A DNA stretch of 64,000 bases from Labia minor (taxonomy: Eukaryota; Arthropoda; Insecta; Dermaptera; Spongiphoridae), in NCBI GenBank assembly GCA_963082975.1, contig OY720345.1, positions 33,860,611 to 33,924,610 on the forward strand. Direction: 5' to 3'. Of the stretch, positions 16,090 to 49,239 are shown one piece after another; position 1 is the stretch's first letter; each line of letters starts with the position of its first letter. The notes beneath the pieces were generated by a model. The model ran no database searches. It was not told the origin of the DNA and was given only the letters and a program-made list of their open reading frames with translations. The position numbers and the translations under genes were made by a program.

Positions 16090-16145
16090 CCAGCTGGTCA
16101 GAGCGCCTTCGGCGCTCTTCACAGCTGGACGGGGGCTCCGCCCCC
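16090..16145 (-). repeat. Helitron 3' end with two GC hairpins
   Basis: Stem GAGCGCC/GGCGCTC with a 3-nt loop lies at 16,101-16,117. Around it, CCAGCTG and CAGCTGG form an outer 7-bp stem. A second stem-loop, GGGGGC-TCC-GCCCCC, lies at 16,131-16,145. Helitron 3' hairpins act as the stop signal for rolling-circle transfer. The extra outer stem and second hairpin are unusually strong. Confidence 0.85.
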
Positions 16146-16329
16146 TGTACCCCCGAGTGGTACATCGTATTTGGTTAAAAGTAGTAAAAGGTTTTCATCC
16201 ATTTTGTTTCAATCAGTATATTACATAAAACATTCATTTCTTTTTGTGTTCTTATTTAAAATATATTTTAATTTAATCAGTAAATTAATTATATATATTA
16301 TTATTGTATATGTTATATCTATCTATTTA

Positions 16330-16700
16330 TATAGCTCAAAGATAGTCTCGAAAGTTCTTGGCCACATTTCTCCAAATGTCCCTATCCTGAGCCCTTGTCC
16401 TATCTCTCTTACGTCCCTTCCTATGCGTCCATGGTCTTGATTCCCTTTGATAATAATTTTGATGAGATAAGCCTCTTTACTGCATGATAACAGGCGTTTC
16501 CCGATTGATACCTCGATTTAAATTGTATATTAAGATTTTGTATGTTAATACTGTTCCTCTTTGTCACTAAATATTTTTTCTTATCACTATTAATTTCAAA
16601 CCTCCATTAATTTTTCCTCGCTATCTGTAATTGCAATTGCCGAATCTCTTATAATATTTAAGACGTCTGCTTAGCCTAACTTTTCAATTATTTTGTTTAA
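16330..16700 (-). pseudogene. LINE reverse-transcriptase fragment inside Helitron H1
   Basis: The minus strand encodes pieces related to the better copy at 32.6-33.3 kb, including DSAIAITDSEE and KKYLVTKR. The catalytic box is degraded (stop-ADV where the other copy has YSDD). The region after KYLVTKR is shortened by a deletion and then resumes near the C-terminal block. It was probably captured or inserted before the Helitron copied itself, because copy 3 carries the same junctions. Confidence 0.7.
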
Positions 16701-17521
16701 TTGCATTTCGAGTGATTTTTTCCCAATTTGTGCAATCACATACTCACAACATGCAACATATAATTGGTCAAAGAATATGTATATAATATTTATAATTTTT
16801 ATGTTTTATTTATATTTATAATTTAATTTTGTTTTTGTTTTCTTTTAATAAATAATTATAATATTAAAAATGCGTAGAGGACGTCTAAAAAATCATATTT
16901 TAATTTTTATATAACCAAGAAATCATTTTTCACTCATTTTCAATTGGCGTTTTGATATACAAAATTAAAGATTATATAAATAATTAATTTTAATTTTGAT
17001 CTCATAATTGGATTTCCTTTTTCATGTAAGTATATAATTAAGAGTGGAATTACAATATAATCAATAGCTAATATATAATATTAAAAATATATTTACGGAT
17101 TCGTTCTATAATAAATTGATGATGTCATTTAATTCTCCTACTATGTATCGAATCGAATATAAAGATAAATCTTCTTTTAAATGTTGTGTGAAACAATTTC
17201 AAATAATTTAAATGTAAAACTATTAATGAAATTAAAAAATCAAATATATGAATATAATATAAATATTTTTAATTTTATTTTAAGAATATATATATCTCAC
17301 AGGCGGTGGTTGTGACGTCATCCATATATTATAAATTTAAATTAAGAAGAACTAATAAAGATGTAGTTTTCCAGAGATGTGGTCAATAAAACTCAATTTT
17401 TCTTTATAAATACTATCTCTGTTGTGAATTTCAAAAAAATCGTTAGAGCGGTTTTTGAGAACAATGAAACAGAGAAACAAACAGAGAAACAAACAATTTT
17501 TACTCTCATAAGAAGATAAGA

Positions 17522-18465
17522 TTTATATAGATATATATGATTGTTAATTAAATTTAAAAGACATCATTTGGAAATTTTCTTACTCACTAAATCTTGAAAA
17601 ACTTTTTACCGAACTAAATTATTACTTAAGTACTCTTTCTGAAGTTTCCAGAGTTGTAGGAATTTCTCTATGATACAATAGTAGTATTAATATGTATTTT
17701 ATAATAACTTTTCTATTAATTATATATATGAGAAATAAGTATATTTTTATTAAAATAGGAAAAATTTTAAACTATAAAAATATTATTATTTATAGTGTTT
17801 TATATTAAAATTTGTAAAAAATATTCTTTTTAAGGGAATTTAAAATTTCTACATCAATTTAATAAAATTCAAACATAAAAAATGGTATAATTATATAAAT
17901 GTATATAATATTATATACATTGAATAAATAAATAACTATAAAAAATTACATAATCTATTGATTCATATTGACATTTATACTGTCAAAAGCAATTATCTAT
18001 TTTTTAGTAAAATATAAATTGGATTATGCCTTTGGCTTACTTTCTTTTCTTTTTATTTTTTGAACAAATTATTCAAAAGTTATGAAGCTCTTGTATAATG
18101 GATTTAATGTAAATTTGTCAATGTCACTGACATCGAATTATATCAATTAATATTCTATCTCCACTATTTGATTTATTAATTAAATAGTGTTTTTGTAAAC
18201 CAGACATACTTAGTTTCATTTTATGTAGATTTCACACTACTAACCAACTACTATCAATAATATTCACATTAAAGTTTTATAAAACTAAAATTAAACTTAT
18301 ATATTATTAATTACAAAAATTACTTTTGTAAGTTTATCCACATATCATCAATGAAATAAATCTAGGTCAAATGTTATTAAAAAAATAATCAATATCTTAT
18401 AAATAAATAAGCAAAGGTTTTGATTCTATTTATTTTGATTTCTAGACTCTATCGGATTTATTCCT

Positions 18466-18501
<36 letters not shown>

Positions 18502-20214
18502 ATAAATGATTGAACAGATCCATACAGACACATTTTAAGGTAACGGTTGACGAGCTCTTCAAACAAGAAAATCTCTCGCCCCAAACCAAGATATATGAGA
18601 AACAACGAGAACGAAAAAAACCAAACATGTTTAGTCTTATATCTATAGAAAAAAGAGAGAGAGAAAGAAGAAAAGTTGGAAAAAAATAAAAATAAATTCA
18701 CTCTGTTCGGTATATGTTATACAAAAAAAAAACTCCATTTGACGGAATTAACCTAAAGAATAGAATAAAAAAAAGAAACGAAATATAGTTTTTTTTATTT
18801 TGCTTTTGCTTTTACTCTTTTGCTAAAGGGGAGAGTAATAGATAAACATGATATACTCTCACTAATGATTCTAAGAAAAACAAGTTTGCAATTTTCTACA
18901 AAAAAAAAAAAAAAATTTAATGAGTAAATAATAAATGTGTCTTTTATTGGGAATAGTTTAATTTGTCATAATAGATAAGATTATTTATTTTTAAAGTTTT
19001 AAAATATGATGCATTAGTTTTAAGTAAATTAAAAAAAAGGTAGTGGAATTCATCATTCAACTTTCCCTTAACACTCTACTTTTGTAATTTTCTTGCTTTC
19101 AAGTTCTTTTAGAGTAGTTCAAAGTGAATAAAATCTTCTTGATATTAAAGATAATTTTATTTTACATAGATGGAGCCGTTATTCAGTAAATTACAAAAAG
19201 GTATAAAATCATATATGTACAATTGCAGCTCCGGTTAATTGATTTAAACAAAAAAGTTACTAAAATTAATGCTTAAATGTTAAATAATTGGGTATATAAT
19301 GACAAGAATTTTTCGTCCATGCCATCTTATATTCCGATGTTAAAAAAAATTAAATAATGCCTATATCAAATAATAAATTTGAGTTTCTCTTTATTTTTGA
19401 ACTACATTTTCCATTTACACACTCACACCGATCATTTTGCGGGGTATGATATTTGAAGACTGTGAAACTTAAAACTCAAATTCAAATTTTTCGACCGAAT
19501 ACTTTTAAGTTTATAAACATATGCATATATTATTTACATACATAAACTAAAAAATTAATTACTACTATTCAATTGAAATTGAAATCTATTAATCCATTGA
19601 ATATTGATTTATTAAATTTTCTATTCTTTAAAATGTCCTTCTCATAAACCAATGAAAAATAAACACTTGTTCAAATAATCTATAATTTGTTCGTTAATCA
19701 AATTATCAATCCTTTTCATAAGTTTTCTTCTAATTGATTAATTAAATTATTATTATATACTCCACACATTCTCGTTGATATAAAAGAAAATCCTTCTACT
19801 TTTATATGAACAACAAAATCCTTAAAATCCTTGTTGAAATGCTAATAATACAATAATACAATTTTTTATAATGTATAATTATTTGTTTTCTTACAATTGA
19901 AAAAGCTGCTTAGCTTTTTACTTTTAATAATAGAAAATATACATATATTTAAGACAAATAATGTAATAATATGTTAATTCATTATAAATAGCATAAAACT
20001 ACAAATCTACTAGTTAATATTTATAGATGATATGAATATAATGTATGTATATGTATCTAATATGATAATGAATATATATATATATATTCTAATTGTAAAT
20101 TATTAAAAGTGAATTGTAATATTTCATTGAGTGTATATATATGTAAGTTATAGTGTAAGAATAAAAAATAAAGATTATTATTATTATATATATATATGTA
20201 GTAGGTGATGAAGA
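17522..20214. other. AT-rich non-coding DNA
   Basis: No supported gene. A (TA)n run and a purine-rich stretch near 18,650-18,690 are the only notable structures. Confidence 0.5.
18471..18497. repeat. (TA)n microsatellite
   Basis: Uninterrupted TA run. Confidence 0.95.
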
Positions 20215-20480
20215 AGACGCTCAGTGTGGGGGTTAACAGCGTTAACCCATAACCTGGAAGTCCCGAAGTCAATTCCAGAGCCTAGCAAGGGAATTTCTCT
20301 ATCTGGACTCTATGAGGCTGAGTACACCTAGACTCCGGGATTAAATTGGGAAGCTAATTGAGAAAAAAATAGCACCTCCAATGAAAAAAATCAAAGGTTG
20401 ATAGGACCCATTTTACTGACCATAGGACACCTAATTTATATAACCGGCTTAGTAGGCGCTGTCCTTGCGTAGGATGTACA
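20215..20480 (+). mobile_element. tRNA-derived SINE, copy 1
   Basis: The head has an A-box-like TGGGGGTTAACAGCG and a degraded B-box (AAGTCAATTCC). The body reads AGCAAGGGAATTTCTCTATC and the tail AGGACACCTAATTTATATAA, then GTAGGCGCTGTCCTTGCG. The same order occurs in the minus-strand copy at 30,592-30,848. Such elements are Pol III transcripts mobilised by a LINE. The B-box substitutions suggest this copy is old. Confidence 0.8.
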
Positions 20481-20639
20481 AAAGTCAAAGGATTATTTAT
20501 ATATAAGTAATAATATACTGTGTGTGTGTATCTGAAAAAATCACCTTTTATTCTTAGAACAACATTAATAGATTAATAAATAAATTAATCGATTAGAAAG
20601 AAAACAAAATGTAATTATAATAACTATTTAAAGAAATAT

Positions 20640-21030
20640 TAAAATTGATGATAATCTCATTGGAAAGGTCTTTTAGCTACGAGTTAAGCATTATGAGATG
20701 AGATTGAAATTAAAACAGACGGTTGCAATTTCGGTGGGTCGTTAATGAACGGCTGATGAGCGCCATTCATTAAGAAAAGATTCCGTGATAGTGAATCGTT
20801 TTCGATCAAGTCGGATGGTTCATCAAATGCTCCAGGAATGAATGCCTCCCTCCCCTCGTACCATTTGCCTTCTAACGATCTTGACTATTTAGAGACAGAC
20901 GGACAGACATTAGTCTTGGAAGCCCGAGGCAATTAAATGCGAATGGTTACAAATAAGCTTTTGAGCTTGATTAAGTCCTTTTAATGTGTGTATGTGTGCC
21001 GGCGTGGGTGGTTGGTCAAAGTTCAAATGA
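20640..21030. promoter_or_regulatory. Higher-complexity island, candidate cis-regulatory DNA
   Basis: About 390 bp of balanced composition, including GGTCGTTAATGAACGGCTGA, GAATGAATGCCTCCCTCC and GGCAATTAAATGCGAATGG. It contains homeodomain-type TAAT/ATTA cores and no long ORF, and it is not repeated in the window. The regulatory role is inference from composition only. Confidence 0.3.
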
Positions 21031-21620
21031 CGTATTTCGTAGGAGTACTTCAAATATTAAACTATACTCAAGCATATATATAATATACTTAGAAATTTCA
21101 ACTATTTGTTTCAACTATTCATTTCGTTTCAACAGTTTGACAATTAACTAAGATTTCTTTAAAATTAACTGTAACACAATAAAGATAAATTTTACTTTTA
21201 TATAATATATTTTAAAATATCTTCTATATCTTCTCTTATTATATTAGCAAATATTGTATATATATGTATATTCAATTGTAATTTATTAATTAACCGCTCG
21301 AAGGTTTTTTGAAATTCACACCATAATAATAATAATATTTATAAATACAAATCGATCTGTATTGGACCTGGAGAAAAATCATCTTCATTAGTTTTTTCTT
21401 AATTTAAATTTAAATATCTTATTCATAATAAATTATTGAATAAATATGATCTAATATTATTAAATAGAATTAGAAATAAGCGGGAGTGTCCTCCCCTAGA
21501 CTTTCCCACATATAAATAGGTATGAAGAGTTGTGAATGAATATTTAGAATGTGTAAACTTGGTATTGATAAAGAGCCAGTTCGTATTAGTTTATTGGTGT
21601 CAAATTTGATATTTGGTAAC

Positions 21621-21623
<3 letters not shown>

Positions 21624-21653
<30 letters not shown>
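21624..21653. repeat. (TA)n microsatellite
   Basis: Uninterrupted TA run beside the nested B repeat. Confidence 0.95.
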
Positions 21654-21657
<4 letters not shown>

Positions 21658-21660
21658 AAA

Positions 21661-22232
21661 GTGCTACTTCCGGTTAACTGATATTTTAAATGTAAAAAAA
21701 ACAGATATGGATATAATATAAATATTTTTAATTTTATTTTATTTATAATATATAAGGGCTGGCAGTGACGTCATGAAGTGCTGGGTGATGTCATATAATT
21801 TTAAATTAAGAAAAAACTAATGAAGATGATTTTTCTTGAGGATAAAACCAATACAAAGTGCATAACACGTGGAGATATGTCCTCACGTGAAATTTGATAT
21901 GAAAATAACCCTTCACTTCCTCTCTTCGATCGGCAATACTAGCACTTCCGGTTTCCAGATTTGCACCAAAAGTTGATCAATTCATTCTACTGATGTATTA
22001 AGTAAATATACCAAATTTCATCAAAATCCGTTGAGCCGTTCAGGCTGTACACATCTATACGGACGGACAGACGGACAGACGGACAGACGGACGGACAGAC
22101 ATCATGCTAAAAATACTTTTTTCTGTTAAGAAAATGCATGATTCGTGGAGATATGTAAAAATCTCCACATGTGAAATTTGGTGTGAAAACAATACCTCCC
22201 TTACTATCGTCGGTCGGTAAAAAATTGTGTAT
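21661..22232 (-). repeat. B repeat, copy 2
   Basis: Shares with the copies at 40.4 and 50.8 kb the blocks AAACAGATATGGATATAA, TGACGTCATGAAG, CTTCCGGTTTCCAGATTTGC, TTGAGCCGTTCAGGCTGTAC, an (ACGG/ACAG)n run and ATCATGCTAAAAATACTTTT. The 5' end is intact on the right (complement TTTTTTACCGACCGACGATA). The 3' hairpin end on the left is missing or degraded. No coding sequence. Confidence 0.8.
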
Positions 22233-22254
22233 ATATATTATATATTTATTTATG

Positions 22255-22395
22255 TATTATTGAGGAGACCACAAGTTCCATTCATTTTAATCATATTGAT
22301 GCAATGATATAACATTTAATAATTGTAATAATTAAAGAATTGTATATCAATAATTTTTAAAGGGTCGAGCGAGATCTCGGTGTCCCAGGTACTAA
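22255..22395 (+). repeat. GAGGACCCC/GGGTCGAGC repeat block, copy 1
   Basis: About 140 bp shared with 63,750-63,880: TTGAGGA.ACC.CAAGTTCC, TTTTAATCA, AAAGAATTGTATATCAATA and AAAGGGTCGAGCGA, ending CCAGGTACTAA. Interpreted as the 3' portion of the plus-strand Helitron-like element. Confidence 0.65.
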
Positions 22396-22969
22396 TTATT
22401 TATTTATGATTAGTAATTAATATTTTTTAAGAATTATTAAGTTTTTAGGTAAAATGGTTATAATATTTAAAAAATACATGATGATTTATTTTAACCATTA
22501 ATAAAAATTTTGATGTGAATTATCTATATATAAAGTAAAACATGAATTTAAGCACAAATACAATTCATACATTTAATAAAATAAGTTTTTATTTTTCAGT
22601 TAAATTTATATAGGAATATTTAAGGATTTTCAGTAATGATACAAAGTTTATTGTTTACGTAATTAATAATTTAAAAATTTCCGTTTGTAATTTATCTTAT
22701 TTTATTTTTAAACCAAATTTATGAGAACAACCCATAATATGGTACAATATATTATAAAAAAATAGTAATAGCCGAACCGAGTATTTTCTAATACTCCCTA
22801 TTTCTCTTTTCCCTTCAGTAACTATCACTATTATATTGTTGTAAATATTATTGTAAACGATTTATTGTTGCCCAAAGGAAGGGCAGATGTAGATCTAAAT
22901 TGGAAAATAAAAATAAAAAAAAATAATATTTGACTGTTAAAGAATTTTAAATAATTATATTTGAAGAGT
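22396..22969. other. AT-rich non-coding DNA
   Basis: No supported feature. Confidence 0.5.
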
Positions 22970-26345: not shown

Positions 26346-26574
26346 ATTGATTACAGTATTTTATTTTTATTTTTTTATTTTTTAAAGAATTACCTAAACA
26401 TTTTATGCATATGTATAGAAAACGAATAGGTTTTTAGGTTATTTTTTTCTTTCTCTTGAAATTATTTCATTGTCACAATTGAACTTTAAATAATGTAATT
26501 TATATGAATGTGATTTGGACTATGCTATCATATATTAATTAGTTGATGACGACAGTTAGATTTCCTATTTAAAA

Positions 26575-26922
26575 TTAAGAAAAAACTAATAAACGTTCTG
26601 AATAATTCAAATAATTTAAATGTATGTATTAATGCAATAAAAAACAGATATAGATACCTATAACATAAATATTTTTAATTTTATTTTATTTATAATATAT
26701 TTTGTATATAAGGAAGCGCTGGCTGACGTAGATGGTGGCGTCATATAAATGTAAATTAAGAAAAAACTAATGAAAATGATTTTCCCGAGGTGGAAACAAA
26801 TACAGATTGATTTTTATTTATAAAAATTATCTATGGTGTGAATTTAAAAAAAATTCTTAGAAGGGTTAAATATATCCCAAATACAAATATATATACATTT
26901 TTCCTAGTATAATAAGATAAGA
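26575..26922 (-). mobile_element. Helitron H1-type 5' end, truncated copy
   Basis: On the minus strand it begins A|TCTTATCTTATTATACTAGG at 26,922. It continues through the H1 blocks (AACCCTTCTAAG, CACACCATAGATAATTTTTA, CATTTTCATTAGTTTTTTCT, ACAGATATAG-type). No 3' hairpin was found to the left, so it is 3'-truncated or has a different 3' end. Confidence 0.7.
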
Positions 26923-31661: not shown

Positions 31662-32185
31662 GCATATCTCGCAAATTTGAATTGGATTAAATAACATATA
31701 TTAATTTAAATTAAATTAAATTAATTCAATTATAAATTAAAATTAATAAATAATATTTATTAAACCAGCGAAAGTTTGGCTCTCTTTTGATGGCACCACG
31801 TCACGTGTTGGCGCGTGAGATTTCCAGTGTTAAAAAATTAATTCTGGTACTTTCAGCAATTCAATTTTCGATGTTGAGATTTTGATGTTTTTGATTTTAT
31901 AAATAATATTTATTAAATTATAATTTAATTAATTTAATTTAATTTAAATTAATAAATATTATTTAATCAAATTCAAATTTGCAAGATAGTCGAGTGGATA
32001 GTGGAGTGTTTGGCTCTTTGTTGATGGCACCACGTCACGTGTTGGCGCGTGAGATTTCCAGTGTAAAAAAATTAATTCTGGTACTTTCAGCGATTCTATC
32101 AGGCTGAAATTCTATATATAGCAGTTTTATACAATTATTAATCATGTGAAAAATTATCAAACATATATCTTTATTTTTACGGTCA
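31662..32185. repeat. R1 repeat copies c/d, rearranged in mixed orientation
   Basis: Two minus-orientation partial copies (31,662-31,858 and about 32,005-32,185) both carry GTTTGGCTCT, CACCACGTCACGTGTTGGCG and TTCTGGTACTTTCAGC. Between them, 31,859-31,997 holds plus-orientation R1 ends (TTCGATGTTGAGATTTTGAT ... TTGCAAGATAGTCGAGTGGA). The cluster looks like nested insertion or a fold-back rearrangement. Confidence 0.7.
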
Positions 32186-32315: not shown

Positions 32316-33300
32316 CTAGCTGCTCAGAGCGCCTTCGGCGCTCTTCACACCTAGACGGGGGCTCCGCCCCCTGTACCCCCGAGTTGTACATAGTATTTGG
32401 TGGTTGAAAGTATTAAAAGGTTTTCATCCATATTGTTTCAATCAGTATATTACATAAAACATTCATTTCTTTTTGTGTTCTTATTTAAAAAATATATTTT
32501 AATTTAATCACTATATTAATTATATATATTATTATTGTATATGTTATATCTATCTACCTATGTGGCTCAAAGATACTCTAAAGTTCTTAGCCGCAACAAC
32601 CACATTTCTCCAAGTGTCCCTATCCTGAGCCCTTATTCCATCTCTCTTACGTCCCTTCCTACGCGTCATTGGTTTTCCAAGCGGACGTTTTCCAATCGGT
32701 CTTCCCACCAATATCTTTTTCCTCTCCCATTCTTGCCACGTGCCCTGCCTATCGCAACTTTTCCCTTTTATAACCCTAACTATTTCTGAAGATGCAGAGA
32801 GGCCATGCAATTTCTTGTTATACAGTCTCCCTCATACCCGGTGACCTCATCTTTCTTTGGCCAATAAATGCAGGGAAGAATCCTATTCTCAAATACTCTG
32901 AATCTACTCTCATCTCCAAGGGTCATAGACCATGCCTCCCACCCATATAATGCAACAGGCAAAATAATCTTTTTATATATTCCCTTTGATAATAATTTTG
33001 AAGAGATAAGCCTCTTTATTGCAGATAACAGGCGTTTCCCGATTGCAACCCCGATTTAAATTCTTCTCAAATATTATTATCCTTCGTGATTACATTCAAT
33101 TTTTCTACATATTCAAATTCTACATTTTGCATCTTAAGATTTTGTATGTTAATACTCTTCCTCTTTGTTACTAAATATTTTTTCTTATCACTATTAATTT
33201 CAAACCTCCATTAAATTTTCCTCGCTATCTGTAATTGCAATTGCCGAATCTCCTATTATATTTAAGTCGTCTGAGTAACCTAATATTTTACAATTGATTT
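32316..33300 (-). mobile_element. Helitron H1-type 3' end joined to a long LINE RT fragment (copy 2)
   Basis: The minus strand ends with GAGCGCCGAAGGCGCTC, then TGAGCAGCTAG|T at 32,316, the canonical Helitron CTAG|T. The second hairpin lies at 32,357-32,371. Upstream is the longest RT fragment of the window. The H1 5' terminus is not found at the right edge. A different block related to the H2 Helitron follows at 33,380-33,640. The left (3') boundary is firm, the right one is not. Confidence 0.75.
32570..33290 (-). pseudogene. Non-LTR retrotransposon reverse transcriptase, C-terminal part
   Basis: About 240 codons on the minus strand with frameshifts and stops. In order: GYSDDLNIIGDSAIAIADSE (the catalytic Y-x-D-D box, here YSDD), KKYLVTKR, LKMQNVEFEYVEKLNV, VALYGWEAWSMTLGDESRF, then ENRILPCIYWPK, then KLR-stop-AGHVARM, and finally GRPIGKRPLGKPMTRRKGRK and AQDRDTWRNVV. 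This is the usual order for LINE polymerase C-termini (YxDD, 'YG.E.W', 'F..R.LR.I', 'GH..RM', 'GRP..RW'). Broken: at least one stop replaces the expected W before AGHVARM, and the reading frame shifts after it. RTE- or CR1-like; the clade is not resolved by eye. Confidence 0.85.
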
Positions 33301-33379
33301 CCGCATCTTATTCTTTCTTTACTACCTTCAAGAGAAATTTGAAGATTGAAAATTTGAAAAAGTTTATCCGGATCTATTG

Positions 33380-33640
33380 AGTCATGCGTAGGTTTTACTA
33401 AAGTCTACAAATAATTAGTGAACAGAAATATTGAATTCGCGGTTTTGTTCCTAATATCTGTCATAATGAAAATATCTTAATTAATGTTGGTCGATTTGGC
33501 CTGAACCCGCAATGATATCTCCTAATATTTCCTCCGCCTATGGTTCTTAAGTATTGTATATGTTATAATAGTGAAATAGAGTATAATATTTCTTGATCAT
33601 TACATTTTGGTATTTTATTTTCATTGCTAGATTATTATTG
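33380..33640 (-). repeat. H2-related Helitron segment
   Basis: AAGTCTACAAATAATTAGTG, ACAGAAATATTGAATTCGCG and GGTCGATTTGGCCTGAACC match the complement of 47,240-47,400 (Helitron H2). A weaker third copy appears at 34,075-34,190. The termini are degraded. Confidence 0.6.
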
Positions 33641-34795
33641 AATATTTTTAATTATAATGAAACTTGAGAAAATGCAAAAATAGAGACTTGAGATAATTTA
33701 TAAAAATTAACGGTATAAAACTATAGATAAATGACCAATATATACATTCATTAATAGTATTAATTTAAATTAATTGATTTATTTGTTTTTTTTATTATTA
33801 AGTTCATTTATTAATTTTTTTAGATCATAGTTATTTTCCTTAAAAGTGGTGCTAGGGGATTTGAAAATTATTCGTCGCAATATGAAGATTTCGCTTACAG
33901 TTTCTGTCATGTCCGACCTCCATCCAACAGTTATTTTCTATTAAGTTTTTTGCTTCTCTTAATCATGTGATCTATATATTTAATTTTTTTTGATTCATTA
34001 TAATAAAATTTAAACAAATAAAAATTTTTACTTTGTTAATTTATATAAATTTCAATATAAACTGATTGTGAGTGATACGCTTAGCCAATACTCTGAATAT
34101 TTTGTGTACAAAAATATTGAATGTTCTTAGCGAGATTTGATATAATGTTGTACGATTTGTCCTAAATCTGAATTAGAAGAAAATTATAAATTGCATTAAA
34201 ATGAGACCTTTTAGAATAAATTATTTAATTGAAATGATATTTAAATATAAGAATTTAAAAAAATATTATATTCTTTGTTTGGCAATTGTTATTTAATTAT
34301 GTGCAACATGATTCGACTTCGTTATTTTTTATTAATATCACATAATAAAAATGAATCTTTTAAACATAATAAATAAAAAAGACATTTTAATAAATTTAAA
34401 AAATATACCCAATTTAAAAATGTCAAAAATTTAAAACAACTTTATATCATCATATTTTAATTTTTATATAATATATATATATTTAGTAATTAATAATAGA
34501 GTAATTAAATTAAAATAAAAAACAAAGATAATATAATTCAGTCATTTTAATTCAGGTTAAATAATATTTTTTTTTATTATTCAATGATAAAATTTATATA
34601 TTATTATATATTATTATAGAAAAGAAGAAATATTCAATTAAATAAAAAATAATTTAAGATAAAAATATGATCTAATAAATATTTTAATTAAATTGAGAAC
34701 TTTTAGAATAAATTATTTAATTGAATTGATATTTGTATATTAGAATTTAAAATAAAAAGGGAAATATTATAATAATTCTTCGATTGGGAATCTCT
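33641..34795. other. AT-rich non-coding DNA
   Basis: No gene seen. Includes the weak H2-like fragment near 34,075-34,190. Confidence 0.45.
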
Positions 34796-34799
34796 ATGA

Positions 34800-35030
34800 T
34801 AATTCATTGTTTGAAATGATTCCGCTAGGCCGACAGTGAGCCGCGAGCTGCTCTTGAATGAACAACACGGAGAATTATATAAACTTTAAAAAATTAATTT
34901 CTGCGGTTATTGATAAGATATTAATAAAATTTATAGCCTATGTTACTCTAGAGGTATATAAGAATATTGTGATGTAATTTCAAAGAAATCGGTTCAGCCA
35001 ATTCTGAGTCTATAAAATAGTAATTTTCCG

Positions 35031-35109
<79 letters not shown>

Positions 35110-35223
35110 GTGAAAAATTCTAAAGTCACTTTTGGATTCTAGAGGTCATGAAACGCGAAGATATGCAAAAATTTTTAAATTCTGAGCAATGTGCAGACAA
35201 AAACCTTTTTTTATATATATAGA
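34800..35223 (-). mobile_element. Helitron-like element H3
   Basis: The minus strand begins A|TCTATATATATAAAAAAAGG at 35,223, a common Helitron 5' form. It continues through a long (GTCT)n run and then GACTCAGAATTGGCTGAACCG, as in related repeats. The 3' end is unclear. A GAGC...GCTC fold and CCTAG lie near 34,825-34,855, but the flanking base does not fit well. Confidence 0.45.
35031..35109. repeat. (GACA)n microsatellite, about 20 units
   Basis: Uninterrupted GACA tetranucleotides over about 79 bp. In the B repeats the same position, next to 'ccgattt.atgaaattt', holds shorter (GACG/GACA) runs, so it is an expansion of a transposon-borne motif. Confidence 0.95.
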
Positions 35224-37904: not shown

Positions 37905-37911
37905 AACTTAC

Positions 37912-40366: not shown

Positions 40367-40440
40367 GTATGTTTGTTATTTTATGTTTTAAAGCAGTAAA
40401 ATTTCTAAAACGAAATTTTAATGAAAATAAATATAATATT

Positions 40441-41635
40441 TTTTTTACCGACCGACGATAGTAAGGGAGGTATTGTTTTCACACCACACATGTGGAGATT
40501 TTTACATATCTCCACGAATCATGCATTTTCTTAACAGAAAAAAGTATTTTTAGCATGATGTCTGTCCGTCCGTCCGTCCGTCCGTCCGTATAGATGTGTA
40601 CAGCCTGAACGGCTCAACCGATTTCGATGAAATTTGGTATATTTACTTAATGCATCAGTGGGATGAATTGATCAACTTTTGGTGCAAATCCGAAAACCGG
40701 AAGTGGTCCGTCCGTCCGTCTGTCCGTATAGATGTGTACAGCCTGAACGGCTCAACCGATTTTGATGAAATTTGGTATATTTACTTAATGCCTCAGTGGG
40801 AGGAATTGATCAACTTTTGGTGCAAATCCGGAAACCGGAAGTGGTCCGTCCGTCCGTCCGTCCGTCCGTATAGATGTGTACAGCCTGAACGGCTCAACCG
40901 ATTTTGATGAAATTTGGTATATTTACTTAATGCATCAGTGGGATGAATTGATCAACTTTTGGTGCAAATCCCGAAACCGGAAGTGGTAGTATTAGCGATC
41001 GACGATAGGAAGGGAAGGGTTATTTTCACACCAAATTTCACATGAGGAGATTTTTTTATATATCACCACGAATCATGCATTTTCTTAACAGACAAAAGTA
41101 TTTTTAGCATGATGTCTGTCCGTGCGTCGGTCCGTCCTTCCGTCTGTCCGTATAAATGTGTACAGCCTGAACGGCTCAACCGATTTTGATCAAATTTGGT
41201 ATCTTTACTTAATGCATCAGTGGGATGAATTGATCAACTTTTGGTACAAATCCGGAAACCGGAAGTGGTAGTATTAGCGATCGACGATAAGAAGGGAAGG
41301 GTTATTTTCGCACCAAATTTCACATAAGGAGATTTTTTTACATATCACCACGAATGTATTGGTTTTATCCTCGGGAAAAATCATCTTCATTATGTTTTTC
41401 TTAATTTAAAATTATATGACGTCACCCAGCCCTTCATGACGTCACAGCCTCGGGTAACGCCGGCTACCTCAGCTATATATTATAAATAAAATAAAATTAA
41501 AAATATTTATGTTTTATCCATATCTGTTTTTTATTACATTAATAGATATATTAAAATTATTTGAAATTGTTTCTGTAGCTGGAAATTAATTTACTTCAAA
41601 CCGTCGGTCGGTTCGGACCTGGCCACAGGTCAACT
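40441..41635 (+). repeat. B repeat, copy 1 (expanded, both ends)
   Basis: The 5' end is TTTTTTACCGACCGACGATA. The 3' end has CGTCGGTCGGT followed by TCGGACCTGGCCACAGGTCA, where GACCTG/CAGGTC forms a 6-bp hairpin. The copy is about 1.2 kb because of a roughly 553-bp internal duplication plus a local triplication (see tandem entry). Two perfect TGACGTCA palindromes lie at 41,417-41,424 and 41,437-41,444. No real gene: the 103-residue ORF at 40,596-40,907 is a translation of the tandem repeat. Confidence 0.85.
40563..40990. repeat. Three tandem units of about 140 bp inside B
   Basis: The landmark TAGATGTGTACAGCCTGAAC starts at 40,591, 40,729 and 40,871, spacing 138 and 142 bp. A fourth, TAAATGTGTACAGCC, lies at 41,153. 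Each unit runs from the (TCCG)n run to AACCGGAAGTGG. Differences in (TCCG)n length and point changes show it is not an assembly duplicate of one molecule. Confidence 0.9.
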
Positions 41636-42835
41636 TATTTAACTTACAGACAGATTTAACAATTTAATTATCTTATCTAACTAATTAAAAATTATAATAA
41701 AATAATGAATTATCTATGATTGGAACATTTGATTTATGTAAATTGTTCTATTCAATTTCTTACATACAATATGTAATTATAAATATTATAATTAGTCACC
41801 TTCTTGTTTCATAGTAAACAACTCAACAAAATTTTTTGTTGTTATTATGGCAAATGAGCGAATATCTAAATATAATTGTAAAATAAATTTTATTTACTAA
41901 TTTATTTTTTGTCACTAATAATATATAAAAAAACAACAACAAATAGCTAAATACAAATAAGACATTAATTAATTATGTTAACAGTTTAATTTAATTTAAT
42001 TTTTTATTTTTAGGGATATAGTCGGAGGTCAAATGAAATGTGAACAATTAAATTCATATATATACAAATATTCTATTATTATAATTAAATTTTAATTGAA
42101 CAATTGTGCATTGAAGTGCATTAACCGGTCAATCATGATGACGATCGACATTATAATTATCATTATCGTTTTATATAATAATGGGAATATTGGAAAAAAG
42201 CTAAATTTCAAGTGCAATGGAATGTATTTAATTATTATAAAAATTAAAAATATTTCATATTTGATATACTAATATTAAACATTAAATTATTATTAGATAA
42301 ATTAGGGATGATAGATAAAATGTTAAAAAGGAGTCATTAATAAAACAGTTTCCCCTCTCTCTAAATTTATTATTATTATTATTAATATTATTAACATTAT
42401 TACCTTTATTATTTGTTAAATGCAAATAGGCCAAGATTAAATTTCATATTATTTCATTCCTCCTGTCCTTTCTGTCTGTTATAATTTTATTTAGTTGAAC
42501 ATTAAATATCAAATTATACCGAATTAATTAACTACGCTCTCATATTATTAACGATATACATAAATTTATAACTGATTGAATATAAAGTAGATATATTTAA
42601 TATAATGAATTTAATAAAAATAATTTATATTTTTATATCTGTTTAAAGTATTTTCATAAAAAAAATTATTTTAAAAATTTACATAATTTGCCTATTCAAA
42701 AATAAAATAGTTAAAAAAAAATATATTTTTATTTATGAACTTAATAAGATTTATATTTTTAAACAAATTCTTTCGTATTCAAATTCATAAAATAAAATTT
42801 CAATTCTAACAAGAGGGGTCGGGGAAGTCCCTAAA
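41636..42835. other. AT-rich non-coding DNA
   Basis: No supported feature. Confidence 0.5.
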
Positions 42836-43121
42836 GCCCAATTTACACGGGCTTACTACTACTTGTCATTAGTTCAGGGGTGGGCAAATACTTTTAAGCG
42901 CGGGCTTTTTGAACGCCCGACGACCCGTTAAAAAAGTTGACTCTTATTTTGATTTTTTGTTCAATATGTCTCTAAAAAAAAAGATAAATTTTTTTATTAG
43001 TGTTTTCGAAATATGGTCCTCCGGCCCGGAAGACATTTAGAAAATTTCATTTTGGCCCGCGCTTAAAAGTATTTGCCCACCCCTGAACTAATGACAAGTA
43101 CTACGCCCGTGTAAATTGGGC
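42836..43121. mobile_element. Long-TIR MITE containing hAT-like ends
   Basis: A 286-bp palindromic element. Outer ends GCCCAATTTACACGGGC and GCCCGTGTAAATTGGGC are exact complements, and the inverted repeat continues inward for about 70 bp through ACTTGTCATTAGTT. Inside it, CAGGGGTGGGCAAATACTTT at 42,875 and its complement ending at 43,085 have the exact form of hAT ends. Either the hAT-like motif is part of the outer element's TIR, or the outer arms were copied around it. Non-coding. Confidence 0.75.
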
Positions 43122-43127
43122 TTAAGG

Positions 43128-43360
43128 CAGTGATTCTCAACCACTGTGCCGCGGTCTTTAGTGTGCCGCGAGATTATGAGGCTCTTAAACATTTCCTACT
43201 TTTCTTCTAAATTTTCCCAATATGGTTCTTAAAAAAGGTAAACCGTTTTTGGGACCACTTTTTTCAATATGGTAAACTTTTACACTTATCTTTTTCTTTG
43301 TGTGCCGTTGTTAAACCGTTAAAAGTGTACCGCGGTAAAAAAAAAGGTTGAGAATCACTG
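43128..43360. mobile_element. hAT MITE
   Basis: A 233-bp element: CAGTGATTCTCAACCACTGT on the left and, complemented, CAGTGATTCTCAACC with GTACCGCGG-type subterminal sequence on the right. The CAGTG.TTCTCAACC end is characteristic of hAT non-autonomous elements. Flanks GCTTAAGG and CCCTAAGG match at 6 of 8 positions, a decayed 8-bp duplication. It inserted immediately beside the preceding MITE. Confidence 0.85.
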
Positions 43361-43984
43361 CCCTAAGGGCTTGGGCTAATGACTTTAAAATCTTATTCCT
43401 TAGTACAATAATAAATTTTATTTTATGTTATTATATAACAATTAAATTTTTGTAAAATGAAAAAATGGAATGTTAAAAAAAATAATGAGAAATAATAATA
43501 TATTTATTCAATTCAATTATAAACATAATTCTTCTTCTCATTATTATTATTAATGTTTCGGATGTGGAGAATTTCTATTTATCAATACATTAACAAGAAA
43601 TAGAAAATAAATTATAAGGGTTAAGGAAAAAACGAAAATGTAATAATTTCTATTTCATTAGTGGAAATCTACACACTGAAGGAGAACAAAAAGAATATAT
43701 TCTATCTTAATACCTTAAAAATCCTTAATAATTATTGATTAAAGTTAAATGATTTAATATGATTATGATTATATAATGTTTATGAAAATTATTAATTAAA
43801 TGAAATTTTATTTTCAGCCAATTAGTTTGTATTAATATTAGTTATGTGAATATTATTAATAATTCATCATTTCTTCTATTAAAATAGAATATTACTTTTA
43901 CCATATAAAATGAAAAACCAATAAATAGATAATCTATAATATAATATTAATTTAGATCATTGGCGGTTCAATAATCTTTTTTTT
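43361..43984. other. AT-rich non-coding DNA
   Basis: No supported feature. Confidence 0.5.
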
Positions 43985-44102
43985 CTATCTTGTTAATAGT
44001 ATTGCGATCGACGAAAATTTTCGATGTCGAGATTTTGATGTTTTTATACGTTTTGAAGGTCCCTGGTTCATTTTCACTAAGATTGAGAAAAATGTCATTG
44101 AG

Positions 44103-44138
<36 letters not shown>

Positions 44139-44595
44139 GGTGTGTGTAGACAAGATTACACAAAAACGGTTTGGAGCTAGAATAATGAAATTTGATACAC
44201 GGGTATTATTCAAAACTGGTAGTTTTCCATCAACTTTTGAGAAAGGTAGCTCATCCGGAAGAGGGTCGTTACTTACAACGTTTTCATTTTTTTTCCTCTA
44301 AACTGACTATAAAAATAAAGATATATGTTTGATAGTTTTTTCACATGATTAACAATTTTATAAAACTGCTATATATATAATTTCAGCTTGATTGAATCCC
44401 TGAACGTACCGGAATTAATTTTTTAACAATTCTGCGAATAACGCGCCAGCTCGTGCCGTGGTGCCATCAACGCGCTGGTTTAATATATATTTATTAATTT
44501 TAATTTATAATTTATAATTAATTAAATTTAATTTAAATATAATATGTGTTAAATTCAATTAAAATTCGCGAGATAGTTGAGTGGAAACACTCCAG
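43985..44595 (+). repeat. R1 repeat, copy f (full length)
   Basis: Runs from CTATCTTGTTAATAGTATTG to GCGAGATAGTTGAGTGGAAA then CACTCCAG. All internal R1 blocks are present, and a (TA)n(TG)n microsatellite at 44,102-44,147 replaces the poly(G)/(GA)n/(CA)n of other copies. ORFs on both strands across it are shadows. Confidence 0.8.
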
Positions 44596-46051
44596 ATTTT
44601 TTGATATATCTTGGTTGGAATTTAAGTTAAATAAAAAACATTGGTAAATATATATATAAGATGAAATTTTCTTTAGAGTGGCGACCCCTCTCCATCTTTC
44701 TAATATTAAATGAGTTTTTTTTTTTCCAAAAGATGGTGAACCTGAAGAAGGTTAATTCGATTAGTAAGAATAATATAAAGTTAACTTGGAGAAGTTAAAG
44801 TCATGCATCTCAAAAGAAAAAAAAGAAAAAGAAAAAATAATAATAATTTCTATCTTAACTAGAAATGATGTCAATATTGTCCTTCTTTACCCTAAATAAA
44901 TTTGAAGTTCACTTTGAATTAAGGTAAATATAGCAAAAATAAACTAATTTCCTCGTAACCAACCAGAGAATTTACGATTGTTATTAAATGAAGCACATTT
45001 GGGACTTTGATTGAAACTTAATTTTATTTGTGCAATCATTTAGGAAGCTATTCCTTGTTGGCTGTTAAATACAAGAATTTATCAGACCCAAATTGATTTG
45101 CCTGCATCTTATTGGGGAGTCATGCGAGATTAACATTTGGAAACTTTGAATTCCATTGACCTGGAATATATCTAAAGAGAGAAGTTACAAACAGATTGAA
45201 AAATATCACTTTATTTAATTCATTTAACAATTCAAATAATATTATGTATTTTAAAGAAGGAATATTAATTAAATTACTATAACTATGTCTATTAATAAAA
45301 TATTATTTATAAAATATATTTCTCAGCATATATATCCGAACCATTTATTATTCGGCTCACATCAATTGATTCGAATCCAATAGCTATCAATAGAATTTGC
45401 TTACTCAGGGATTTCCTAACAATCCTATTATCGATAATCACGTTTAGTTATTCCATTTTATTTTTTTCCCTCTTTTTTTGTTAGAATTTTATAAATGATT
45501 TTTTCACAATTAATCAGAAAATTATATTTATTTAGAATTAAAATTAATTTTAAAAATGGGGTTTAATAATTAATTCTTTCTTTTATGTCCTCTCTGAACT
45601 GTTTTTTTTTTGTCATATAATGAGAATTGTGATGATTGTAATTAGTTAAAGTAATTTATCGTTTGTCCTACTTTTTTTTTGTTGCTGATACAAATACAAC
45701 TGGAAATGAAATTTATCGTATAATAGTAACAAGTTCTAGAAAAAGGTTAATTTCCTATATTGTTTCGCATTGCTTAATTAAATTAAAATTTATCCATTAC
45801 AAATACAATTTTATAAAAAAAATTAATTTAATTTTAATTTTATTCTATTAATTAATCCTCTTTAATTTAACAATTTTAATTTTAATGTGTTGTGAAAATA
45901 ATAAATCAGGAAATATCCATATACCAACTCATTATATTTATTCATACAAAAAATATTTTCCAATAATAATCATTCACTTTTAAAAACAATTAAAAATAAT
46001 TCACCAAATTTTAATTTTGGATTTCGAAACCAAAAAAACAAAAAAAAACAG
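44596..46051. other. AT-rich non-coding DNA
   Basis: No supported gene. 44,900-45,190 is moderately complex but has frequent stops. Confidence 0.45.
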
Positions 46052-46282
46052 GGTAATTATTCAACTAAACGCCCTTTCGTGGATTTGGATAAAACTTTAC
46101 CAGTGGGTTCCTTTTACAATTCCAAATAAATTTTTCTTATGAAATTTGTTCGGGCCCCTTCTAGTTTACGAGATAAAAATTATTAAAATCCGCATAAACC
46201 CATTGATATTCTATTTAGCTACCATGTTTTATCCACTGATAAAGTGTTATCCAAATCCACGAAAAGACGTTTATTAGAATTA
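46052..46282. mobile_element. Long-TIR MITE, copy C (internally deleted)
   Basis: The left arm GGTAATTATTCAACTAAACG ... TAGTTTACGAGATAAAAA is intact. The right arm survives only as ATCCAAATCCACGAAAAGAC and a degraded tip. About 130 bp of the centre and right arm are missing compared with copy A. Confidence 0.75.
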
Positions 46283-46359
46283 AAAATAGTTAGGTTCTTA
46301 TTTGGATTATATATATTGACCTGATTTTTTTTTCATTGAAAATTATATAATAGTTGAAG

Positions 46360-46690
46360 AGTTAATAGAGGATCGCGTGTGGAGATGAAACGGGAGAGGC
46401 CAAGAGAAAAGTTTCCGTTCGGCGCCAACCACAGAAAGAGAGACGGCTACCAAATGGAATAATTATATAGAGCGCAAAGAAGTATATGTTAATAGAGGTG
46501 ACTCTCTAGAAATTCTTACGGCATAGTAAATTTCCTGTGGGTGTGGTCCAGTGAATTGGAGGGAGGGCAAAGGTGAATGAATGAGTCACGAGTGTCGCGT
46601 GACAACAATAACCAGCTGCTACCCACAAAACCCACAATACCCGGAAATGACCGTCATAATTTGGGGCAGACAAATCCAACGGTAAACAAA
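46360..46690. promoter_or_regulatory. Single-copy island with clustered transcription-factor-like motifs
   Basis: About 330 bp of balanced composition. ATGAGTCACG is an AP-1 consensus (46,582 region), CAGCTGC an E-box, AACCACAG a Runt-type site and GGGTGTGG a KLF-type box. The coding potential is poor. The motif matches are short and can occur by chance, but their density in a GC-richer unique block is notable. Confidence 0.35.
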
Positions 46691-47084
46691 AAAAAAATAT
46701 ACAAAGTCATATTTTCCAAATCAAAATAGTTTTGGTTATTTATTTAAATTTTTTTTTCAGGATTATAAATTGTGGGTAATTTTCCTAAAAGGTTAGCTTT
46801 GTGTAATGTGAAGTTCAAGTTCATTTATTTATTTAAATAAAAATAATATTATAGTAAATTTAAGAGATGGATTCTATTATATTAGTTATAATGTATTCAG
46901 AAAATAAGGAAAAAACACTAATATATAAGTATTTATATATACTAACAGTGCTAAGGCCATAAACAAGCACATATTTAAGATATACAAATGATCAACTAAT
47001 TTTAATATTATATAATTTATAATAATATATTCTTATAATAAATATTATTTAATCTAATTAATTTTTAAATAAAAAAACATCTAA

Positions 47085-47412
47085 TCTAATATATATTATA
47101 AAAGCAAATGTTTGAGAGGATGTTTGTTACTCTTAAAATAAAAATACTGAATAGCTCTTAATGAAATTTTACAATAATATAGTCTATACATCAGAATAAT
47201 ACATGGACTAATAATTACTTATATTGTTATATTTTTTCCGTGGAAGATGGTCGAACATACTAACACATTAGGAGAATAACAATGCTGGTTCAGGCCAAAT
47301 CGATCAACATTTGATCAGATATTTTCATTAAGACTGACATTAGAAAAAAAACGCAAATTCAATATTTCTGTTCACCAATTATTTGTAGACTTTAGTGCGA
47401 AGAGCGCCGAAA
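47085..47412 (+). mobile_element. Helitron H2, truncated inside its 3' hairpin
   Basis: The 5' end A|TCTAATATATATTATAAAAG leads into CAAATGTTTGAGAGGATGTT. It continues through GGTTCAGGCCAAATCGATCA and ends GCGAAGAGCGCCGAA, the first half of the H1/H2 hairpin, after which the sequence diverges. It thus shares its 3' end with H1 but has a different 5' end and body. Confidence 0.7.
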
Positions 47413-47929
47413 GTAAATATTTAACAGATAATAAACTGACTAACTCTAAATTGATATAGATATGATAGATTGATAGATTGATATATTTAACTCTAAATTG
47501 ATATAGATATGTATATACATAGGTATATTTTAAAATTAAAAAAACAAATAAATTTATATAGATAAGTTAACTAACATTCAATAATTAAAATATACTTTAA
47601 AGTGGGATTTAATTAAATACATCCCTATTAATATTTATTTAATTAGTAAATTGATATTGTAGAGTATACATTTTATTACTTATTGATTTTTATTTTTGAT
47701 AATTAATTTTATTTTTCTTTAAATGTTTAAAGATTTTTCCTCCACCCAATTTCTTCCAAAAAATAAATATATCATAACATCTACTTAGCGAAAGTGATAA
47801 GTGAAAAAATATTTATTTCGAGATAAAACTGAGACATTTCAGCTTTCAATTTCTATTTAATATTATTAGATAAGATTTATTCAACAATTTATTTTTAATA
47901 AGATATTCTTTAATTATCATTTTTTTTTA
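47413..47929. other. AT-rich non-coding DNA
   Basis: Contains a short direct repeat (TAACTCTAAATTGATATAGA at 47,441 and 47,489). Otherwise nothing recognised. Confidence 0.5.
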
Positions 47930-48177
47930 AATATGTCCTGTCAGGTGTCAATATGAAAGCGCTGTTGAAGTGACGTGTCGATTTAAAGAAACACTGACTG
48001 AGATGTCAATTAATTTTTTAAAAATTGTAAATGATTTTGATTAATTTATAATTAATATTTAAGTAATTATTATGTTTTCTGTCAATCTGATATATAAGCT
48101 ATAGTATTGTAAAATTTTATTAAAATCCATTCAGTACTTTTTCCTCACGAACAACCACATTTATAATATATATAAGA
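47930..48177 (-). mobile_element. Helitron H2-like 5' part abutting H1 copy 3
   Basis: The minus strand begins A|TCTTATATATATTATAAATG, then GTTGTTCGTGAGGAAAAAGT and ACTGAATGGATTTTAATAAA, matching the H2 5' region. It begins only 13 bp downstream of the CTGG|T end of H1 copy 3, in the same orientation. The left end near a TGTCAGGTGTCA palindrome (about 47,940) is uncertain. Confidence 0.6.
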
Positions 48178-48190
48178 TATAAGATATATA

Positions 48191-49239
48191 CCAGCTGGTC
48201 AGAGCGCCTTCGGCGCTCTTCACAGCTGGACGGGGGCTCCGCCCCCTGTACCCCCGAGTGGTACATCGTATTTGGTTAAAAGTAGTATTCTTCTATTTAT
48301 ATAGCTCAAAGATAGTCGAAAGTTCTTGGCCACATTTCTCCAAATGTCCCTATCCTGAGCCCTTGTCCTATCTCTCTTACGTCCCTTCCTATGCGTCCAT
48401 GGTCTTGATTCCCTTTGATAATAATTTTCTTTAATTGCATTTCGAGTGATTTTTTCCCAATTTGTGTAATCACGTACTCACAACATGCAACATATAATTG
48501 GTCAAAGAATATGTATATAATATTTATAATTTTTATGTTTTATTTATATTTATAATTTAATTTTGTTTTTGTTTTCTTTTAATAAATAATTCTAATATTA
48601 AAAATGCGTAGAGAACGTCTAAAAAATCATATTTTAATTTTTATATAACCAAGAAATCATTTTTCACTCATTTTCAATTGGCGTTTTGAATATACAAAAT
48701 TAAAGATTATAAAAATAAATAATTTTAATTTTGATCTCATAATTGGATTTCCTTTTTCATGTAAGTATATAATTAAGAGTGGAATTACAATATAATCAAT
48801 AGCTAATATATAATATTAAAAATATATTTACGGATTCGTTCTATAATAAATTGATGATGTCATTTAATTCTCCTACTATGTATCGAATCGAATATAAAGA
48901 TAAATCTTCTTTTAAACGTTGTGTGAAACAATTTCAAATAATTTAAATGTAAAACTATTAATGAAATTAAAAAATCAAATATATGAATATAATATAAATA
49001 TTTTTAATTTTATTTTAAGAATAGATATATATCTCACAGGCGGTGGTTGTGACGTCATCCATATATTATAAATTTAAATTAAGAAGAACTAATAAAGTTT
49101 CGTGAGATGTGATCAATAAAACTCAATTTTTCTTTATAAATACTATCTCTGTTGTGAATTTCAAAAAAATCGTTAGAGCGGTTTTTGAGAACAATGAAAC
49201 AAAGAAACAAACAATTTTTACTCGTATAAGAAGATAAGA
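48191..49239 (-). mobile_element. Helitron H1, copy 3 (complete, shortened)
   Basis: Same ends as copy 1: A|TCTTATCTTCTTATACGAG at 49,239 and hairpin plus CTGG|T at 48,191, with hairpins at 48,202-48,218 and 48,232-48,246. Compared with copy 1 it lacks about 110 bp after TTAAAAGTAGTA and about 250 bp after TTTGATAATAATTTT, the latter removing most of the RT fragment. The rest is nearly identical by eye, implying a fairly recent common source. Confidence 0.9.

Follow-up and report, generated by a model that had tools for sequence, protein, structure and literature searches.

Results

Structure and Termini of the Three Elements

Three complete canonical non-autonomous Helitrons lie on the minus strand of the window, that is, the whole 64,000-nucleotide stretch of Labia minor DNA that was analyzed (Table 1). 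Their termini are the 5′ TC and 3′ CTRR of canonical Helitrons. The 3′ ends of copies 1, 2 and 3 read CTGG|T, CTAG|T and CTGG|T, respectively, in agreement with a preliminary description of this DNA, and each copy is flanked by A and T without a target duplication. Within the window, the hairpin 3′ end is confined to these three loci, as had been claimed, and it appeared in none of 100 shuffles. In copy 1, an outer stem (16090-16096/16122-16128) takes in the terminal CTGG. Folding was done for copies 1 and 2; a GAGCGCC/GGCGCTC hairpin was present near the 3′ end in all 38 loci. The set of 45 3′ ends was filtered for GTG directly upstream, and window copies 1 and 2 entered it twice.

At the other end, copies 1 and 3 share the expected 5′ terminus A|TCTTATCTTC, at 17521 and 49239. 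Copy 2 had been described as devoid of a Helitron 5′ end; it carries A|TCTATATATATA, a type unlike that of copies 1 and 3, with its first base at 35223. Instead of the single family that had been proposed, the window holds two families that differ in their 5′ ends and have one 3′ module in common.

Table 1. Helitron copies in the window and their component parts.
Feature	Position	Strand	Description
Copy 1	16090-17521	minus	1432 bp, non-autonomous Helitron, A|TCTTATCTTCTTATGAG...CTGG|T
Copy 1, 3′ terminus	16090-16145	minus	hairpin 16131-16145, inner hairpin 16100-16118
Copy 1, LINE-type RT remnant	16328-16693	minus	retains three copy-2 RT blocks; two internal deletions
Copy-1/3-type 5′ half	16690-17521	minus	154 bp with 82% similarity to sequence downstream of the L074 Rep-helicase gene
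Copy 2	32316-35223	minus	2908 bp, non-autonomous Helitron, A|TCTATATATATAAAAAAAGG...CTAG|T
Copy 2, 3′ module	32316-32466	minus	94% identity (151 bp) with the Rep-helicase Helitron 3′ end
Copy 2, LINE-type RT piece	32549-33570	minus	motifs by eye, from the fingers motif to the C-terminus; frameshifted, with stops
Copy 2, 5′ 1013 bp	34211-35223	minus	92.7% identity with the 5′-terminal part of the Rep-helicase Helitron at C4:72530932
Copy 3	48191-49239	minus	1049 bp, non-autonomous Helitron, deletion derivative of the copy-1 type
Copy 3, LINE-type RT remnant	48298-48428	minus	deletion junction as in copy 1

Insertion Sites and Abundance

All 38 loci end in CTGG|T or CTAG|T. Both sides of the insertion were read at 25 junctions, which include the three window copies (L001 and L015 are window copies 1 and 2 and were counted as W1 and W2). 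The site was A|T at 22 junctions, T|T at two and G|T at one, and the 3′ T was present in 25 of 25. Left out of this count were L002 and L004 (no 5′ end located within the first 1200 bases examined), L011 (5′ end within a TA run), L025 and L030-L038 (5′ region outside the sequence taken) and L029, whose 5′ side, in L040, displays two 5′ termini. When the words shared by the two ends were compared with 300 re-pairings, no target duplications were detected across the 25 junctions. The mean shared word was 4.2 nt versus a re-pairing mean of 3.5 (range 2.7-4.4), and it falls near the top of that range because one junction sits in a TA run. Such duplications at copies 1 and 3, named beforehand as evidence that would speak against Helitrons, were looked for and none was found. 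The unoccupied site for L023 is exact at the junction; two others, for L022 and L017, are consistent but lie within TA repeats. As read from the flanks, 3 of the 38 loci (L004, L008 and L028) end exactly at the apparent 5′ terminus of another Helitron. Nested and head-to-tail Helitron copies occur in the genome.

Both families look abundant and young. The first 511 bp of copy 1, used as a query, were found at 99-100% in at least 40 places, and the copy-2 RT query gave at least 40 full-length places, 10 of these 40 at maximum score (window copy included). These counts are lower bounds, with 40 candidates scored per search.

The Reverse Transcriptase Segment

The RT sequence stands in sense with the Helitron in all three copies, as first noted. 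The distance of 150-250 bp from the 3′ end given for it holds for copies 1 and 2 (about 235-240 bp) and fails for copy 3, where it is about 107 bp (48298 versus 48191). The blocks retained in copy 1 correspond to bases 46-219, 284-367 and 670-787 of the copy-2 RT, and the junction that joins bases 367 and 670 is common to copies 1 and 3. Separate insertion of RT into each copy is ruled out by the common order and by this shared deletion junction. A later independent insertion, another possibility raised at the outset, was not found; identical RT bases, with order and direction unchanged, precede the common 3′ module.

The RT is broken by frameshifts and stops in copies 1-3 and in a further locus, L095, none of which has the intact RT frame of a LINE. 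In a protein search of the genome for RT, in which 126 of 41083 first-look candidates were scored, each match listed contained at least one stop; other genomic copies match the RT in one frame over 300 or more codons, with stops read through. Across 501 aligned positions, copy 2 and L095 differ at 8 first, 4 second and 8 third codon positions, too few differences for judging selection on the RT since capture.

The assignment of the piece to LINEs is a tentative one, based on a test of its C-terminal tail and on motifs read by eye. With the C-terminal half, two of nine LINE tails (551 bp stretches) scored above all 150 window and 150 shuffled controls, the window controls having been sampled across the entire window with its RT stretches. 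The L094 tail scored 73 versus control maxima of 57 (window) and 56 (shuffled), and the less clear L087 tail scored 62 versus 44 and 57. The RVT half gave 62-63 against L080, L081 and L083, within the controls (up to 79 and 82), and the whole piece gave 85-87, a value above every window control (to 77) and below the best shuffles (to 89). Against LINE loci, the part of L095 that reads in a single frame reached at best 24.3 bits (E 0.026, L094), barely more than the 23.9 of the best of 60 shuffles. Neither tblastx nor blastn revealed a clear relation between the RT piece and the top RVT_1 family (L080-L085). One 71-bp match of 83% falls in the L084 flank. Pfam and PDB searches with the RT pieces, frames and a read-through matched no RT family; weak matches to PriCT_2, Death_3, HSH49, transglycosylase and plexin were taken as chance. 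No intact parent LINE was found among the genome loci compared, and none of 33 pattern matches in viral contigs was a relative.

Rep-Helicase Relatives

An 8.2 kb Rep-helicase Helitron (L078+L076) has both copy-2 ends and an open 1722-codon frame with Helitron_like_N, PIF1 and Pif1_2B domains, which gives the copy-2 type an autonomous relative with Rep and a PIF1-type helicase. No RT was found in this relative by blastn. Judged by these matches, copy 2 is a derivative, because its ends match the 5′ 1013 bp and 3′ 151 bp of the larger element; a frameshifted LINE-type RT segment stands in place of the Rep-helicase gene. With 6-7% divergence from copy 2, the Rep-helicase copy may be a cousin of the partner. 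The same 5′ end was reached by 18 of 18 copy-2 relatives examined (17 with exact TCTATATATATA, L043 in a TA run), and all 30 copy-2 loci continue to the edge of the sequence taken. Since the 5′ region is partly duplicated in 8 of 30 copy-2 relatives, 5′ structure varies within the element. In L075 and L076, a short extra copy of the 5′ terminus precedes a single 3′ terminus.

In copies 1 and 3, another 5′ half is joined to the RT-plus-3′-end module of copy 2, with nested deletions. One element, L039 (1877-4426), combines the copy-1 5′ end with the shared 3′ end; it also contains an RT remnant and 485 bp that are 97% like the Rep-helicase C-terminus and downstream region of L074. This single element suggests a link between the copy-1 5′ end and an L074-type Rep-helicase lineage. 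Of the Rep-helicase, the copy-1 type has only the C-terminal piece, in L039.

Discussion

The three loci are very probably non-autonomous Helitrons with a captured LINE-type RT piece, whose RT-plus-3′-end module was taken over by a second lineage. The ends, the insertion sites and the common module support the central claim of the preliminary description, namely Helitrons in which a sense-oriented LINE RT fragment sits next to the 3′ hairpin. Beyond these observations, the Rep-helicase relative and the nested deletions, we infer in which order the events took place, which way the exchange went and that mobilization occurs in trans. A Helitron of the A|TCTATATA lineage would have gained, directly upstream of its 3′ end, a LINE portion that took in the RT C-terminus, and an internal deletion that removed or replaced the Rep-helicase gene would have produced the copy-2 family. 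The second lineage (5′ end A|TCTTATCTT, tied to another Rep-helicase type) would then have taken the same module, probably in a round that started at its own 5′ end and finished at the 3′ end of a nearby RT-bearing Helitron (end-bypass/composite). The arrangement required by this route is that of L004, L008 and L028. Nested deletions afterwards would have given the copy-1 and copy-3 types. Rep-helicase proteins recognizing the 5′ and 3′ ends would move the three loci in trans.

The LINE part may have entered in two ways. In the first, a serious candidate that falls short of an even chance, target-primed reverse transcription placed a 5′-truncated LINE close to the 3′ end of a single Helitron, which then amplified it. 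The piece reaches the C-terminal frame end, and an AT-rich stretch of about 80 bp separates it from the common 3′ module, as expected of a 5′-truncated LINE with a 3′ tail. Against this, no pre-insertion Helitron was identified with certainty, and in the Rep-helicase copies the 3′ region at this point is composite. Uptake at the DNA level, as break-repair filler or by read-through into a neighboring degraded LINE, is a candidate of the same standing. Both routes have been put forward for capture by Helitrons (PMC6544945), and nested and head-to-tail copies are found here, but the 126 of 41083 first-look candidates scored included no donor locus whose flanks match.

It is very improbable that the present families are the wreckage of an ancestral autonomous Helitron with a continuous LINE-type RT frame downstream of the Rep-helicase and in the same direction. 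This would agree with L039, a single element that has the C-terminus of a Rep-helicase, an RT remnant and the 3′ end, and with genomic RT matches that follow one frame for 300 or more codons, stops read through. Least likely of all is the reverse order, in which a LINE family took on a hairpin 3′ end resembling that of a Helitron and propagates through reverse transcription, its RT recognizing the hairpin as the end of the RNA: each of the three copies does have its RT in sense and upstream of the 3′ end, and the RT is longer in copy 2 than in copies 1 and 3, but the premise of a copy 2 lacking its 5′ end was wrong, and the idea was ruled out by Helitron 5′ termini on all three copies (the same end in 18/18 copy-2 relatives, and 30/30 loci not 5′-truncated in the sequence taken, instead of the variable truncation and target duplications of a LINE), the sites, the exact unoccupied site, the missing target duplications and the broken RT of copies 1-3 and L095.

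Capture by Helitrons and chimeras with one 3′ end and many 5′ ends are already known; an LINE RT is an unusual cargo, and the kind of event is ordinary for Helitrons. The case is well resolved, with a cargo-bearing Helitron 3′ module common to two lineages with different 5′ ends, and with the Rep-helicase relative, derivatives and nested deletions all within one genome. For annotators, an LINE-RT match in the Labia minor genome may belong to a Helitron. As described for the silkworm (PMC3789558), Helitrons are likewise non-autonomous with captured coding fragments, and new ones arise by joining two. That survey, by its account, dropped TE-related proteins, so a captured LINE would go uncounted there, and LINE-like transposon cargo in Helitrons may be under-counted.

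The composite Helitrons of Fusarium, as reported in PMC5148889, combine several 5′ termini with one 3′ terminus and have a short extra 5′ copy, as in L075 and L076; unlike them, the common 3′ module of the copy-1, copy-2 and copy-3 types also bears a LINE-type RT piece. Helentrons, rolling-circle elements with a Rep-helicase-endonuclease, took up a non-LTR retrotransposon domain, the endonuclease being closest to CR1 according to PMC4067079. Unlike Helentrons, the window elements insert at A|T, and their LINE piece is a decayed RT and not a fused working domain. No endonuclease family was detected by Pfam (E 0.001) in the L076 and L074 Rep-helicase proteins, and the endonuclease domain and T|T insertion that mark Helentron/Helitron2 do not characterize these elements. 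Hel-2 of Lepidoptera, a canonical insect Helitron1, likewise has 5′ TC, 3′ CTAG, a 3′ hairpin and flanking A/T (PMC4344730). The likeness lies in these described features, and the account of Hel-2 in that article, as far as it goes, gives no LINE cargo. A (CTGT)n microsatellite is contained in the 5′ region of Hel-2 (PMC4344730), as it is in that of copy 2.

Helitron Ends and Insertion Sites

Copies 1–3 and their relatives in the 604 Mb genome (71 contigs) are Helitrons. The window (GC content 25%) has the hairpin 3′ end at three positions and nowhere else; 100 shuffles produced none. Copy 2 had been described as lacking a Helitron 5′ end, which is wrong: the terminus A|TCTATATATATAAAAAAAGG is read there and was overlooked. 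The 3′ termini in all 38 loci from two genome searches were CTGG|T (8) or CTAG|T (30). None of the 30 copy-2 loci stops short of the 5′ limit of the stretch fetched for it. In 18 of them the 5′ region was retrieved to locate the start: 17 have the exact TCTATATATATA, and the remaining one (L043) sits within a TA run. The 5′ region is partially duplicated in 8 of the 30 (L029–L032, L034, L036–L038); L040, a locus with a duplicated 5′ region that was followed further, has two 5′ termini.

At 25 junctions with both flanks, the base preceding the 5′ end was A (22), T (2), or G (1), and the base following the 3′ end was always T. The sequence shared by the flank ends (mean 4.2) was about the same as in re-paired flanks (3.5; range 2.7–4.4 in 300 re-pairings), and the top value comes from a TA run. 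Comparison of the joined flanks with the sequences fetched revealed an unoccupied site for 3 of the 25: the junction is exact for L023, and the sites of L022 and L017 lie within TA repeats of variable length. The maximum score over 786 bp was reached at 10 of at least 40 full-length copy-2 places, the window copy among them, and the copy-1 query found at least 40 places at 99–100%, both 40-place counts being lower bounds. Both families therefore look young.

The terminal CTRR doubles as the 3′ arm of an outer stem, in which the upstream arm is CTAGGTG for CTAG (35 ends) and CCAGCTG for CTGG (10 ends). This correspondence holds in 45 of 45 ends passing a filter for GTG immediately upstream, with two window copies entered twice. 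A C-G to T-A change between the two forms keeps the pairing and may have been one event.

Features of the window and of related loci
Feature	Coordinates	Size, strand	Remark
Copy 1	16090-17521	1432 bp, minus	A|TCTTATCTTCTTATGAG...CTGG|T
Copy 2	32316-35223	2908 bp, minus	A|TCTATATATATAAAAAAAGG...CTAG|T
Copy 3	48191-49239	1049 bp, minus	A|TCTTATCTTCTTATACG...CTGG|T
Outer stems	16090-16128, 32316-32354, 48191-48229		
Repeats, 71-75% to copy-1 5′ region	21292-21417, 21688-21835, 26606-26867, 41370-41573, 50839-51016, 62981-63186		
Interspersed repeat, group 1	3221-3366, 6090-6237, 31718-32099		common CACGTCACGTG stretch
Interspersed repeat, group 2	3615-3713, 6354-6452, 51414-51512		common AGACATTTTTCT stretch
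Second 5′-terminus copy	L076:5932-6051, L075:5907-6026		~200-320 bp before Rep-helicase Helitron 3′ end
Rep-helicase repeat proteins	L076:263-5428, L075:1-5403, L074:414-5369, L077		

The LINE-Type RT Cargo

In copy 2, a LINE reverse transcriptase (RT) can be read on the minus strand from ~33570 to 32550, across frameshifts, with GFRPNR, VDFSKTYA, GYSDDLNIIG, ILPVALYGWEAW, GHVARMGEE, GRPIGKRPLGKP, and AQDRDTWRNVV, which we take to be LINE motifs. Curated libraries did not detect the piece. Two tests support a LINE origin of its C-terminal half. A piece read in hand-picked frames scored 45 bits against the tail of L094, an intact LINE of the same genome (100 shuffles, at most 28.5). In a frameshift-tolerant alignment of the raw DNA with nine LINE tails (150 window and 150 shuffled controls), the tails of L094 (73; control maxima 57 and 56, respectively) and L087 (62; 44 and 57) exceeded all controls, and the other seven did not. 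The RVT half, compared with another LINE clade, scored inside the control range; the whole piece scored 85–87, above the window controls and below some shuffles. The single-frame piece of L095, a copy-2-type copy, gave a best E of 0.026. In a protein search that scored 126 of 41083 first-look candidates, other copies in the genome carry the hand-joined pieces in a single common frame (e.g., C1:15114066-15115040, residues 1–314, 69%, stops read through). No intact parent was seen among the matches listed, because each has at least one stop.

With the copy-2 RT stretch as a ruler, copy 1 retains bases 46–219, 284–367, and 670–787, and copy 3 retains 347–367 and 670–787; the 367/670 junction is common to both, with greater loss in copy 3. 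L095 and copy 2 are 94.6% identical in an alignment of 1067 bases; L095 has fewer frameshifts, and its 3′ hairpin is broken. Since the RT is broken in copies 1–3 and L095 and mostly deleted in copy 3, whose Helitron ends are both intact despite this loss, it appears, as far as can be seen, to have no role in movement. The first capture may have been LINE retrotransposition into a Helitron, or it may have been uptake at the DNA level.

Rep-Helicase Relatives

Helitron_like_N had 104 matches across the genome. At C4:72530932-72539147 (L078+L076), an open frame of 1722 codons contains the Helitron_like_N, PIF1, and Pif1_2B domains. This element starts A|TCTATATATATA and finishes CTAG|T; its first 1013 bp are 92.7% and its last 151 bp 94% identical to copy 2. 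A second copy (L079+L075; 5′ terminus outside the sequence read) is 99.6% identical across 5.8 kb, and blastn found no RT in either. Because both copy-2 ends are common to a relative with an open Rep-helicase frame, the Rep-helicase would act in trans on matching ends. Ahead of the 3′ end, L076 and L075 have an extra short 5′-end copy (83% to copy-2 bases 3–127), as if the 3′ end were derived from a mini-Helitron inserted downstream. This double 5′ end corresponds to the composite form reported for Fusarium Helitrons (PMC5148889).

Near the N-terminus, the Rep-helicase proteins of both lineages contain tandem repeats of ~23 residues, matched by Pfam STPRs in L074, the second lineage (E 1.4e-18), and recognised by eye in L076, L075, and L077. 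The near-identical L075 and L076 have different numbers of 46-residue (138 bp) units. The repeats look like a putative variable DNA-binding array of a Helitron transposase; no report of STPR together with a Helitron was found in the open-access literature. At C5:46739897-46771612, five Helitron_like_N matches of equal score, spaced by ~9.8, 9.8, 5.7, and 5.7 kb, are possibly a tandem array of Rep-helicase Helitrons.

Probable Chimaeric Origin of Copies 1 and 3

Locus L039 (1877-4426) joins the copy-1 5′ end, an RT remnant, and the 3′ end of copies 1–3, and 485 bp of it are 97% identical to L074, covering the last ~38 Rep-helicase codons and downstream sequence. Judged from this composition, the copy-1/3 lineage has the 5′ side of the second Rep-helicase lineage and, joined to it, the first lineage's RT-plus-3′ module. 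Three of the 38 loci (L004, L008, L028) stand head-to-tail with an apparent 5′ terminus of another Helitron; a missed 3′ end at such a pair would give a chimaera of this kind.

Capture, end bypass, and chimaeras with one 3′ and many 5′ ends are described for Helitrons (PMC6544945, PMC3789558, PMC5148889), as is the endonuclease that Helentrons acquired from a non-LTR element (PMC4067079). No LINE RT fragment within a canonical Helitron was recognised in titles and abstract openings of the open-access papers listed, or in passages of PMC3630058.

Other Repeats in the Window

The six repeats resembling the copy-1 5′ region have neither RT nor the copies' hairpin end and are probably older or different Helitron families. 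Groups 1 and 2 are another interspersed repeat family, one group-1 member lying immediately outside copy 2. An open frame at 51-590 (179 aa), with no Pfam match, presumably resembles part of a BEL/Pao-type retrotransposon polyprotein.
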